In this document: positions 45,180-49,531 of the stretch, in pieces
Layout of the letters: every line of letters begins with the position of its first letter
Position numbering within the stretch: position 1 is the first letter of the stretch
Assembly: GCF_018128965.1 (NCBI RefSeq)
Contig: NZ_JAAEDH010000002.1
Location: 62,001 to 126,000, forward strand
Length of the DNA stretch: 64,000 nt
Origin: Plastoroseomonas arctica
GTDB taxonomy: Bacteria > Pseudomonadota > Alphaproteobacteria > Acetobacterales > Acetobacteraceae
Direction: 5' to 3'
Made by a program: the position numbers and the translations under genes
The notes under the pieces: model-generated
Databases searched by the model: none
What the model saw: the letters and a program-made list of their open reading frames with translations, nothing else
Told to the model about the DNA's origin: nothing

Positions 45180-45469
45180 AGGCGGGGGGCTCCGCCCCCT
45201 CGACCCCCGCCAGGGATCGCGCCGATCCCTGGACCCTGGCGTGTGTTGGTCCTGGGTTTGGAAGGTGGGTCCTGGACTTTTATCAGGGCCTGTCATCGGG
45301 AGAGGGTGGCCGGGAGCGATCACCAGATGAGAGCGCGTGACGGCCACCCTCTCCCGATGACAGGCATTCCGGACAGACCCCAGAACCACCCTCCCAAAAC
45401 CAAGAACCAACAAATGGAGGTCGAGGATCGACACGATCCTCGCGGGGTCCAGGGGCAGAGCCCCTGGCC
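45180..45469. repeat. Large multi-hairpin palindromic element, copy 2
   Basis: The element fills the whole gap between two convergent stop codons. It has outer G/C hairpins, the mini-hairpins GGATCG-CGC-CGATCC (45214-45228) and GGATCG-ACA-CGATCC (45425-45439), and diverged arms. Its centre holds a perfect 24-bp inverted repeat at 45289-45312 and 45341-45364. The left arm 45212-45261 matches the reverse complement of copy 1 (38010-38059) at 45 of 50 bases. The right arm 45389-45440 matches the reverse complement of copy 1 (37841-37892) at 49 of 52. Confidence 0.9.
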
Positions 45470-47119
45470 TTACTGCGCCGCCATCCGGCGCAGTGCCGAG
45501 CGCGACACCTTGCCCGAGCTTGTCACCGGCATCTCTGTGAGGAAGGCGAAGTGGCGCGGCGCCTTGTATCCGCCGAGGCGTTCGCGGACATGCTGGCGCA
45601 GCGCATCTTCGAGGGCCGCGTCGGCCGTGACGCCCGCGGCCAAGCGGATGCAGGCCTGCACCGCTTGGCCGCGCTCGGCGTCGGGCACGCCGATCACCGC
45701 GGCCTCGGCCACCGCCGGATGCGCCATCAGCACATCCTCGATTTCAGTCGGCCCGATGCGCGCGCCGCCGGCCTTGATGAGGTCGTCGCCGCGGCCGCGG
45801 TACCAGTAGTAGCCATCGGCGTCGCGGACCGCGAGGTCGCCGGTGCGGATCCAGGGGCCGAGGCGCATGGCCGCGGTGAGGTCGGGCCGGTTCCAGTAGC
45901 CGAGGAAGAGCGTGGGCGTGGTGGGCACGGTGACGATCTCGCCCACCTCGCCATCGGCGATCTCGACACCCGCTTCGTCGACAAGGGCGGCGACGTGGCC
46001 TGGGTATTCCCAGCCCATCGAGCCATGGCGGATGGGGCGCAGCGCGCGGCAATTGCCGATCATGTGGTTGACCTCGGACATGCCGTAGCCCTCGTTCAGC
46101 ACGGTGCCGAGCGCCTCTTCCACCCAGCGGATGGTGCGGACGGGCAGGGGTTCCCCGCCGGTGAAGATGCAGCGCAGGCGAAAGGCGCGGCCCTGCCGCG
46201 GGTGGGCGATCTGCGCCATGCGGTTCAGGCCGGTCGGCAGCAGCAGCGTGTGGGTCACGCCGTGCCGCGCCATGAAATTCAGCGCCCAGTCCGGGTCGAA
46301 GCGGTGGTTGCTGCACACCAGCATCTGGCCGGCCTGGAGCGCGGGGTAGATCGTGTCCACGAGGGCAGCGAGCCAGCCCCAGTCGGCCGGCGTCCACAGC
46401 ACCGCGTCGGGCATGTCGAGCGAGAGGTCGTAGAAGAGTTCGATCGTCGGGCGATAGGCGTGCGGCAGGCTGTGCGCGTGCAGCACGCCCTTGGGCTGGC
46501 CGGTGGAGCCGGAGGTGTAGACCAGCAGCGCGGGCTCATCGGCGCGCGTCGTGACGCACGGGCCGGTCGCTGGCGCGGCGTCGCGCCAGGTGTTGAAGGC
46601 CATCTCGCCCTGCGCGGTGTCGCCGATGACCAGCACGTGTCGCAGGTCCGGGCAGTCCGCGCGGAGGAAGGCCACGGGGCGCCAGGCCTCGGCCTCGGTG
46701 AGCAGGACGGTCGCGCCGCTGTCACGCAGTGCGTGGCGCAGCGTGTCCGGCCCGTAGCGCTGCGACAGCGTCGTCGCGATCGCGCCCAGGCGGTAGGTGG
46801 CCAGGTGCGCCATCACCGTCTCGATCCGCGCATCGGTGTGGATGGCGACGCGGTCGCCGCGCCCGACGCCCAACCCGGTGAGCAGCGTGGCCAGGCGCCG
46901 CACCGCATCGTCGAGACCCGCATAGGTGATGTCGGTGATGGCGCCATCCGCCGCCTCGAAGCGCACCGCGACGCGATGCGCGCGCGGCCCGGTGGCGTGC
47001 AGGCCCAGCGTGTCGGCGGTGATGTTGGCGTGTTCGGGCAGCGGGATGCGCCAGCGGCCGGCCTCGGCCGGCTCCAGACCGAGATCGTGCAGCCTGGCCG
47101 CGAGGCCCGGCTCAGCCAT
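45470..47119 (-). CDS. AMP-forming acyl-CoA ligase
   Basis: The 549-residue ANL-family ligase has the P-loop YTSGSTGQPKGVLHAH, then TPADWGWLAALVDTIYP, FTGGEPLPVRTIRWVEE, LNEGYGMSEVNHMIGNC, IRTGDLAVRDADGYYWYRG and the catalytic Lys region TSSGKVSRSALRR. The TADWGW-type motif places it near acetyl-CoA or medium-chain/aryl acid ligases. It begins eight bases inside the end of the Rieske gene, so it is the third gene of a coupled operon with the Rieske protein and a binding protein. Confidence 0.9.
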   Translation of the reverse strand: MAEPGLAARLHDLGLEPAEAGRWRIPLPEHANITADTLGLHATGPRAHRVAVRFEAADGAITDITYAGLDDAVRRLATLLTGLGVGRGDRVAIHTDARIETVMAHLATYRLGAIATTLSQRYGPDTLRHALRDSGATVLLTEAEAWRPVAFLRADCPDLRHVLVIGDTAQGEMAFNTWRDAAPATGPCVTTRADEPALLVYTSGSTGQPKGVLHAHSLPHAYRPTIELFYDLSLDMPDAVLWTPADWGWLAALVDTIYPALQAGQMLVCSNHRFDPDWALNFMARHGVTHTLLLPTGLNRMAQIAHPRQGRAFRLRCIFTGGEPLPVRTIRWVEEALGTVLNEGYGMSEVNHMIGNCRALRPIRHGSMGWEYPGHVAALVDEAGVEIADGEVGEIVTVPTTPTLFLGYWNRPDLTAAMRLGPWIRTGDLAVRDADGYYWYRGRGDDLIKAGGARIGPTEIEDVLMAHPAVAEAAVIGVPDAERGQAVQACIRLAAGVTADAALEDALRQHVRERLGGYKAPRHFAFLTEMPVTSSGKVSRSALRRMAAQ

Positions 47120-47960
47120 CGGCGGGGACGAGCGTGACCATGCCGTCGGCGGCCACCGCCACGCGCGGCGCCGGTGCCAGGCGGGCGCGGTGGCCATCGA
47201 GGCTCGCACCGGTCCGCGCGTCGAAGCGCCAGCCATGCCAGGGGCAGCGGATCGCGCAGCCATCCTCGACGGGGGCATCCTCCAGCGGCCCGAGCCAATG
47301 CGGGCAGATGGTGGAATGCGCGACCAGCGCGCCATCCTCCAGCGCCACCACGCGGAAGGGGCGCTCGGCGAAAGCCACCACCAGCGGCAGGCGCGGCAGC
47401 AGCGCCGCGACCGGGCCGAGCTCCACCGGCTCGGGCTTCGGGCGGGGTGCGGCGGCCCAGGCGCGGGCGCGGGCCTCGGCCATCTCGCGATGCTGCATCA
47501 TCGCCTCATCCTCGGACCAGAGGCGCTCGCAGCTCGCCATGTATTTTCCGCCGAGGACGGCGAGTTTCTCAGGGCGCATCTCCGGCAGGTAATAGCGCAC
47601 CTCGACCGCGGTACGGTGCGCGTCCAGCGGCGTCATCAGCGTCCAGAAGCGGGTGCCGGCGCCGATGCCCTCCTCGAAGATTGCGGTGTAGCGGTGGCGC
47701 GCGCGATCCACCTCCAGGCGCAGCACCTGTTCGCGATCGGGCGTGCTGGGCGGCCGCGAGAGCCGGATGCGCCAGCCCCAGTCGCCGCTATCGAGGCGCT
47801 CGACGGCCGTGAAATAGCTGTCGTGCAGCGCGGGAAGGTGCTCCCAGTCGAACACGTTCTCGAAGATGCGGTCCACGCTCGCGCCGACCTCGCGCCGGTA
47901 GGTGGCGGCAAGGTGCAGCGCGGGGTCGGCGGCGGTGGCTTCCGGGGTAGTGCTGGTCAT
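47112..47960 (-). CDS. SRPBCC-like plus C-terminal Rieske [2Fe-2S] protein
   Basis: The 282-residue protein has an N-terminal domain (about 15-165) that resembles the SRPBCC/START helix-grip fold: YRREVGASVDRIFENVFDWE, then FWTLMTPLDAHRTAVEVRYY. Its C-terminal domain has the full Rieske motif C219-x-H221-x17-C239-x2-H242 in STICPHW and CPWHGWRFD. In ring-hydroxylating oxygenases the Rieske domain comes first and the catalytic SRPBCC-type domain second. Here the order is reversed and the protein is shorter. A redox or ring-activation role is inferred from the neighbouring acyl-CoA ligase. Confidence 0.85.
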   Translation of the reverse strand: MTSTTPEATAADPALHLAATYRREVGASVDRIFENVFDWEHLPALHDSYFTAVERLDSGDWGWRIRLSRPPSTPDREQVLRLEVDRARHRYTAIFEEGIGAGTRFWTLMTPLDAHRTAVEVRYYLPEMRPEKLAVLGGKYMASCERLWSEDEAMMQHREMAEARARAWAAAPRPKPEPVELGPVAALLPRLPLVVAFAERPFRVVALEDGALVAHSTICPHWLGPLEDAPVEDGCAIRCPWHGWRFDARTGASLDGHRARLAPAPRVAVAADGMVTLVPADG

Positions 47961-49531
47961 GCCGAGACGCGCCGGATGTTCCAGAACAGCGTCGGCCCCT
48001 TGAGCACGCCCTGCACGCTGCGCCGCCAGGCCGTCGGCTGGAAGAACTGGCCGAGCGGGATGTAGGGCAGGTCGGTGAAGGCCTGGGCCTGGATGCGCGT
48101 CGCAATCGCGCGCTGCGCGGCGAGGTCCGGCGCCTGCAGCCATTCCTCGCGCATCCCCTCCAGTGCGGGCGACTCCGGCCAGCCGGCGAAGGCGGCGGCG
48201 CCATGCGCGCGGAGGAAGAAGTTCACGCCCGGATTCATCAGGTCGAGGCCCGAGAGGAAGGTGCAGAACAGGTTCCACCCGCCCTGCGCCGCCGGCCCGC
48301 GATTGGCGCGGCTCTGCAGCACCGTGCCCCAGTCGCTCGGCGTGTAGTCGAGCTCCACGCCGGTGCGGCGCAGCATGTCGGCGGCGACTTCGGTCAGCGC
48401 CTGCACCTGCGGGTAGTCGGCCGGCCCGATCAGCTTCACCCGCTGGCCCGCCAGCACCGCGCGCGCGGCGGCCAGGTCGCGCGGGCCGGTGAGCGCGGCC
48501 ATCCCCGCATCGCTCGCCATCGGCGAGGCGGGCGGGAAGAAGCCGATTCCCGCATTCCACATCGCCGTGTCGGTACCGGCGACCGCGCGCATGTAGTCCG
48601 GCTGCGCGACCGCGGAGAGCAGCGCGCGGCGCATCGCTGGGTCGTTGAAGGGGGGCGTGAGGTGGTTGAAGCGCAGCAGCGCGATGAAGCCGGTGGGGTC
48701 GGGGTTTTCCACCAGGATGTCGCGGTTGCGGCGCAGCAGCGGCAGCAGGTCGGTCGCGGGGTATTCCCACGCATCCACCTCGCCGGTCTGGATCGCGGCG
48801 GCCGAGGTCGCGGCGTCGGGGATGGTGCGCCATTCGACGCGGTCGAAATGCACCACCTTGCCGCCGGCGGTGCTGCTGGCGGCCTCGCCGCGCGGCACGT
48901 AGCGATCGAATTTGGCATAGACGTTGCGCGCGCCGGGCACACGTTCGGCCGCGAGGAAGCGGAACGGGCCGCTGCCCACCATCTCGGTGATGGCGCGGTC
49001 GGGCGGCGTGGCGGCGACGCGCTCGGGCATCATGAAGGCCACCGGTGGCGAGGTTTTCGCCAGCGCCGCGAACAGCATCGGGAAGGGTCGCTTCAGCCGG
49101 AACACGATGTCCCGGTCCCCGTTCGCCGCCAGCTCATCCGTCAGCGCCATGATGGTCTGGCCGAGCTGGTCGCGCGCCGCCCAGCGGCGGATCGAGGCGA
49201 CGGCGTCGCGTGCGCGCACCGGCTCGCCATCATGGAAGACCAGGCCGGGGCGGAGGCGGATGGTGACGCGGCGGCCATCCTCCTCGATGCTGTGGCCCTC
49301 GGCCATCTGCGGCTGCGGGCGGAAGGCCTCGTCCTGGCCATAGAGCTGGTCGAAGATCATATAGCCGTGATTGCGGGTGATGTAGGTCGAGGTGAGGATG
49401 GGATCGAGGATCGAGAGGTCTGAGGCCGGCACGAAGCGCAGCAGGCTCGCCGACTGCGCCCGTGTCGCCCGGGGCAGGGCGGGGGCGGCGAGGGCGCCGG
49501 CGGTGAGGGCCATAATCGTCCTGCGATGCAT
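47957..49531 (-). CDS. Peptide/nickel-type ABC binding protein without adjacent permeases
   Basis: The 524-residue family-5 binding protein starts MHRRTIMALTAGALAAPALP, a signal peptide. Family motifs follow: DLSILDPILTSTYITRNHGY, RLRPGLVFHDGEPVRARDAV and MVGSGPFRFLAAE. No permease or ATPase gene is next to it; instead it heads an operon with the Rieske and ligase genes (4-bp and 8-bp overlaps). This suggests capture of a compound which the downstream enzymes then process. Confidence 0.9.
   Translation of the reverse strand: MHRRTIMALTAGALAAPALPRATRAQSASLLRFVPASDLSILDPILTSTYITRNHGYMIFDQLYGQDEAFRPQPQMAEGHSIEEDGRRVTIRLRPGLVFHDGEPVRARDAVASIRRWAARDQLGQTIMALTDELAANGDRDIVFRLKRPFPMLFAALAKTSPPVAFMMPERVAATPPDRAITEMVGSGPFRFLAAERVPGARNVYAKFDRYVPRGEAASSTAGGKVVHFDRVEWRTIPDAATSAAAIQTGEVDAWEYPATDLLPLLRRNRDILVENPDPTGFIALLRFNHLTPPFNDPAMRRALLSAVAQPDYMRAVAGTDTAMWNAGIGFFPPASPMASDAGMAALTGPRDLAAARAVLAGQRVKLIGPADYPQVQALTEVAADMLRRTGVELDYTPSDWGTVLQSRANRGPAAQGGWNLFCTFLSGLDLMNPGVNFFLRAHGAAAFAGWPESPALEGMREEWLQAPDLAAQRAIATRIQAQAFTDLPYIPLGQFFQPTAWRRSVQGVLKGPTLFWNIRRVSA

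Follow-up and report, generated by a model that had tools for sequence, protein, structure and literature searches.

Characterised Rieske oxygenases (ROs) consist of an N-terminal Rieske domain and a C-terminal catalytic domain; as about 45 Å separate the two metals within a chain, electrons cross between neighbouring subunits of the trimer (PMC7293229). As described for SxtT, the iron-site residues are Asn158, Asp161, His164, His169 and Asp280, of which Asp161 serves as the bridge between the two metal sites (PMC7293229). In ring-hydroxylase alpha chains the sheet of the catalytic domain is extended to nine strands and extra helices are present (PMC2577659). A search of the literature for permuted, reordered or C-terminal-Rieske oxygenases returned nothing relevant among open-access papers.

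Here we describe a protein from the window (the whole 64,000-nucleotide stretch of DNA that was analysed) which, as far as its sequence allows, is probably a compact single-subunit-type Rieske oxygenase with the mononuclear-iron catalytic domain first and the Rieske domain last. It and its homologues seem to form a variant of a familiar enzyme class that has drawn little notice. A natural family of reversed order tests the need for the canonical N-terminal-Rieske layout and supplies a compact framework for C-H oxidation, and present annotation would miss its members or label them 'SRPBCC/Rieske protein'. The features of the locus are collected in Table 1.

Table 1. Coordinates of the probable oxygenase gene, its domains and metal-site motifs, and the two genes that overlap it
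Feature	Position in window	Strand	Basis
Solute-binding protein (SBP), extracellular, family 5, 524 aa, upstream gene	47957..49531	(-)	PF00496 E 1.7e-52; PDB 8vdx E 3.7e-133
Probable reversed-domain-order oxygenase (catalytic first, Rieske last), 282 aa	47112..47960	(-)	Translation, Pfam, AlphaFold2 structure, family alignment
Bet v 1/SRPBCC-type catalytic domain, N-terminal, residues 14-170	47451..47921	(-)	Model; hhalign to ordinary RO catalytic domains 95.6-96.3%
Mononuclear-iron motif N-x2-D-x2-H-x4-H, residues 35-46 (N-V-F-D38-W-E-H41-L-P-A-L-H46), predicted bridging Asp and two His ligands	47823..47858	(-)	Invariance; alignment with ordinary ROs
E150-D151, D151 the proposed third (carboxylate) iron ligand	47508..47513	(-)	D151 invariant; aligned with ordinary-RO E-D motif
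Rieske [2Fe-2S] domain, C-terminal, residues 179-278	47127..47426	(-)	PF00355 E 3.1e-12; hhalign to RO Rieske domains E 1.1e-13
Rieske ligands C219-P-H221 ... C239-P-W-H242	47235..47306	(-)	Translation, family rows
AMP-forming acyl-CoA ligase, 549 aa, downstream gene	45470..47119	(-)	PF00501/PF13193

Domain order, metal-site signatures and predicted fold

The gene is the minus-strand open frame running from 47960 to 47112; the plus-strand frame of the same interval was also read and was rejected as a gene. PF00355 (Rieske), on residues 185-253, was the sole Pfam domain above its cut-off. Below threshold, VanA_C (the vanillate demethylase catalytic domain) scored 19.6 bits on residues 26-57 against a cut-off of 23.5, Polyketide_cyc2 (PF10604) scored 17.7 bits on the N-terminal part against a cut-off of 27.4, and no Pfam match to Ring_hydroxyl_A was listed. 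The top NCBIfam matches were Rieske ferredoxins, far under their cut-offs and spanning the Rieske part only; neither Pfam nor NCBIfam returned a single model covering both domains. With 282 aa and a catalytic-type domain, the protein differs from a small stand-alone Rieske ferredoxin of about 100 residues. The first-pass annotation of this DNA had picked out the four Rieske ligands in a protein said to be shorter than ring-hydroxylating oxygenases, and both the residues, reproduced exactly in the minus-strand translation, and the short length hold.

The N-terminal domain had been called helix-grip-like by the same annotation, and structure prediction bears this out. The AlphaFold2 model, computed with a ten-sequence alignment (pLDDT 89.9, pTM 0.81), contains beta-alpha2-beta6-alpha elements over residues 15-170 followed by a Rieske fold, and residues 14-156 align with Bet v 1-type structures with Z up to 17.4 in VIA-align. 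In the model, the second short helix begins with H41, and D151 is part of the long helix that ends the catalytic domain. Ordinary ROs bear their iron ligands on these same two helices. The best 50 PDB matches listed by Foldseek and VIA-align contained plant Bet v 1 proteins and polyketide cyclases and no RO, an absence which is not evidence against RO kinship. The catalytic domain of the family is composed of about 155 residues and of the basic Bet v 1 elements only, in contrast to the nine-stranded sheet and added helices of ring-hydroxylase alpha chains (PMC2577659). Because it is confined to these basic elements, the family seems to bridge ordinary SRPBCC domains and the catalytic domains of oxygenases.

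The N-terminal domain holds the full RO mononuclear-iron signature, N35-x2-D38-x2-H41-x4-H46 ... E150-D151. SxtT has exactly the same spacing (N, +3 D, +6 H, +11 H), and its Asp280 corresponds to D151. A 2-His-carboxylate site, which the earlier reading had proposed to look for in this domain, is thus present at the level of sequence as H41, H46 and D151 together with the bridging D38, all of them invariant. The alignment of ten full-length homologues showed invariance at E34, N35, D38, W39, E40, H41, L42, L45 and H46, and likewise at E150, D151, M154, R158 and all four Rieske ligands. After further genomes had been searched, 62 family rows were collected, and the N-D-H-H-D and C-H-C-H sets were complete in 57 of the 57 rows that are fully readable. 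One further row has an unreadable base at one His, and four are Rieske-only pieces from a short subgroup; in a separate alignment, the N-terminal part of this subgroup likewise contains DWEHLPxVH. The iron motif was regenerated in none of 200,000 shuffles of the window protein's N-domain.

Very short members of about 218 aa were met in one alphaproteobacterial genus (L151-L154); they keep both metal motifs and may be the smallest of these Rieske oxygenases. In one alphaproteobacterial genome (L150/L156, 394-1210) the family gene is split into overlapping frames at 394-756 and 689-1210, which is a frameshift or an assembly error.

Kinship with ordinary Rieske oxygenases and distribution of the family

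When the full-length family was compared with twelve ordinary ROs by hhalign, two significant but non-collinear alignments in swapped order were obtained. The Rieske alignment placed family positions 190-287 on RO positions 11-112 (98.1%, E 1.1e-13), and the catalytic alignment placed family positions 29-178 on RO positions 134-304 (95.4%, E 1.9e-8); in the latter, the two His and the Asp ligand line up with those of ordinary ROs. The inverted order that the first-pass annotation had noticed against ring-hydroxylating oxygenases is thus seen as crossed alignments, and the homologues share it. As the Rieske-first, catalytic-last order that defines RO alpha subunits is reversed in the window protein and its homologues, the protein was not classified among the standard RO alpha subunits.

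The family catalytic domain alone matched ordinary RO catalytic domains at 95.6-96.3%, while its control comparison with 28 Polyketide_cyc2 domains gave 77%. Two further controls, ordinary ROs against Polyketide_cyc2 and the reversed family sequence, gave 0.2% and 0.1%, respectively. D-x2-H-x4-H occurred in none of the 28 control Polyketide_cyc2/SRPBCC domains. SRPBCC/Polyketide_cyc2 proteins have the same fold as the family N-domain and a weak profile similarity to it, but the control members are devoid of the family's iron motif and the window protein falls under the Pfam cut-off. In sequence and profile searches of the PDB, both query halves matched NdmA and SxtT in swapped order, with the catalytic half individually weak; direct HMMER against the catalytic half of solved ROs likewise gave a weak match (E about 0.8).

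The alpha3 Rieske oxygenases (vanillate O-demethylase, dicamba O-demethylase, NdmA, SxtT) are like the family in having a Rieske motif, a helix-grip catalytic domain and the N-x2-D-x2-H-x4-H plus late E-D motif in register, and both halves are homologous by profile. The second Rieske motif reads CPWH in the window protein and CPYH in SxtT. Unlike these enzymes, however, the family has the reversed order, a Rieske domain in its own clade and no linked reductase. In the Rieske-domain tree the reversed-order family formed that clade with support of 100/98, apart from the RO Rieske domains and from the ferredoxins. At the single-sequence level the window Rieske domain matched mostly ferredoxins, and Rieske ferredoxins of the AndAb, HcaC, CarAc and MocE type do resemble the C-terminal domain of the family, but they lack its fusion to an iron-site domain and stand separately in the tree. 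Short Rieske matches, mostly from Nitrospira and Planctomycetota (L009-L080), were set aside as Rieske-domain relatives only; those read were ferredoxins of about 100 aa.

The inverted order is best read as permuted or independently fused domains. As the Rieske domains form their own clade, the family may stem either from an ancestral RO whose domains were permuted or from an RO-type iron domain that was fused independently to a Rieske domain. On balance we lean towards a separate Rieske oxygenase lineage, with a minimal Bet v 1-type iron domain ahead of the Rieske domain. If this is true, a two-metal oxygenase was assembled more than once, or permuted, and catalysis is independent of the canonical domain order and of the large insertions of known catalytic domains.

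The reversed layout with intact metal-binding residues was found in about 60 other bacterial genomes. Such recurrence with all metal ligands makes the arrangement look like a natural variant and not an accident. In the genome-wide profile search (E <= 1e-20), positives amounted to 36 of 284 genomes in the phylum of a 'Deltaproteobacteria' MAG (a few being fragments), 29 of 299 in one alphaproteobacterial family, to which the Sphingomonadaceae MAG of L001 belongs, and 2 of 398 sampled genomes of the window's own phylum, the window's genome counted. One Saprospiraceae MAG and one Oligoflexales MAG also have the family gene. When the window protein alone served as query, one full-length relative (G068) was detected among 99 other relatives of the window, and none in the two sampled congeners of its genome. 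Plasmid and phage collections gave no family match at E 1e-10 or at 1e-5. The patchy spread across Alphaproteobacteria, 'Deltaproteobacteria' and one Saprospiraceae MAG is consistent with transfer or loss.

Operon, redox partner and possible function

As had been noted at first reading, genes for an acyl-CoA ligase and a solute-binding protein overlap this one in a single operon; the shared letters read from the sequence are ATGA (4 nt) between the SBP stop and the oxygenase start, and ATGGCTGA (8 nt) between the oxygenase stop and the ligase start, which implies translational coupling. The closest solved relatives of the ligase include acetyl-, anthranilate- and benzoate-CoA ligases. Since the oxygenase gene is co-translated with this ligase, an organic acid or the CoA ester of such an acid is the most likely substrate of the oxygenase in the window genome.

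The window protein very probably acts like a Rieske oxygenase. An outside ferredoxin or reductase would pass an electron to the C-terminal [2Fe-2S] cluster at C219/H221/C239/H242, from which it would travel via D38, within or between subunits, as we infer, to a non-heme Fe(II) that H41, H46 and D151 would coordinate inside the Bet v 1-type cavity. O2 would then be activated at the Fe(II) and the organic substrate oxidised. The operon contains no ferredoxin or reductase gene. Reductase_C (PF14759) is absent from the genome, and the sole NAD_binding_1 (PF00175) protein found there is a CysJ-like flavoprotein. Six Rieske frames were found in the genome, and the only other long one (469 aa) has a C-terminal Rieske motif without the iron motif; thus no other candidate for a Rieske oxygenase appears to be present beside the window gene.

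Other Rieske frames were seen in passing. Frames of 391-522 residues with a C-terminal Rieske domain and without the RO iron motif (L082 373-1782, L085, L099, L100) are a different C-terminal-Rieske architecture. Moreover, a contig of the window's own genome (C2:140855-141160; L231 1402-1815, minus strand) encodes a 137-aa Rieske protein with an unusually long gap of 32 residues between the ligand pairs, and an amidohydrolase-like frame lies near it on the same strand.

Gene neighbours were then compared across the family; the counts are approximate and were repeated by tblastn, as the simple gene caller mis-calls some high-GC loci, the window ligase included. In 7-8 'Deltaproteobacteria' loci an AMP-forming ligase is encoded upstream of the family gene, whereas that of the window lies downstream. 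The two sorts of ligase are about 28% identical, so the 'Deltaproteobacteria' association probably arose separately. Some of these loci add an alpha/beta hydrolase-like protein, a glyoxalase-fold dioxygenase-type protein, an amidohydrolase and a CoA transferase III, and such clusters resemble those of aromatic-acid catabolism. Elsewhere the family gene stands beside an acyl-CoA carboxyltransferase (L227), a nitronate monooxygenase and an acyl-CoA dehydrogenase-like protein (L212), enoyl-CoA hydratases, an FAA hydrolase or a P450, and in another group of loci beside a Na+/H+ exchanger. Recurrence of the ligase in a second lineage lends moderate support to an organic-acid or CoA-ester context, which is plausible for the window genome and is not a family-wide rule, the majority of members being flanked by other genes. 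Because the neighbours vary across the family, the substrate is a guess.

A different picture is given by 15 Sphingomonadaceae loci (L205-L221), in which a HemF-type coproporphyrinogen III oxidase gene directly precedes the family gene, about 1 kb upstream and on the same strand, with RelA/SpoT and M1 peptidase genes around them. This arrangement, together with neighbours as different elsewhere as the Na+/H+ exchanger, the carboxyltransferase and the P450, would suit a genuine permuted family working on an endogenous metabolite such as a tetrapyrrole or a lipid, with the ligase/SBP operon being a local accident. The HemF linkage is limited to one family, however, and may be plain vertical synteny, while the neighbours in other lineages point to CoA esters, hydrolases and oxidative catabolism (AMP ligase, alpha/beta hydrolase, glyoxalase-fold dioxygenase-type protein, amidohydrolase, CoA transferase III, enoyl-CoA hydratase). 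We therefore consider a housekeeping role of this sort unlikely.

It is equally doubtful that the operon serves as the uptake-and-modification module suggested by the first-pass annotation, with an SBP dedicated to supplying the acid that oxygenase and ligase process. Part of that proposal stands, as the three genes overlap on one strand, the ligase is of the acetate/benzoate/anthranilate-CoA ligase kind and a ligase recurs in one other lineage. The transport part fares worse: an SBP homologue was found by tblastn within 8 kb, as far as the contigs reach, at 0 of 64 other family loci, and the three-gene operon contains no permease. Besides, family 5 SBPs cover a broad range of ligands (peptides, nickel and others), and the nearest solved relative is named merely solute-binding protein.

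An electron carrier or redox-controlled binding protein, made of an SRPBCC ligand-binding domain and a Rieske ferredoxin-like domain, would agree with the mostly ligand-binding use of the Bet v 1 fold, with Polyketide_cyc2 and VanA_C each matching 32 of 53 members and with the mostly ferredoxin matches of the Rieske domain, but it is made very improbable by the fully invariant oxygenase iron triad, bridging Asp and Asn, by their motif being missing from the control SRPBCC domains, and by a catalytic-domain profile nearer to ordinary ROs than to Polyketide_cyc2. The compact Rieske oxygenase thus remains the preferred reading.

Downstream of the operon, a perfect 25-nt inverted repeat with a 28-nt loop occupies positions 45288-45365, between convergent heparinase-like and ligase genes. 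Both arms are unique in the window and Rfam gave no match; the repeat is probably a two-way terminator or an intergenic palindrome.
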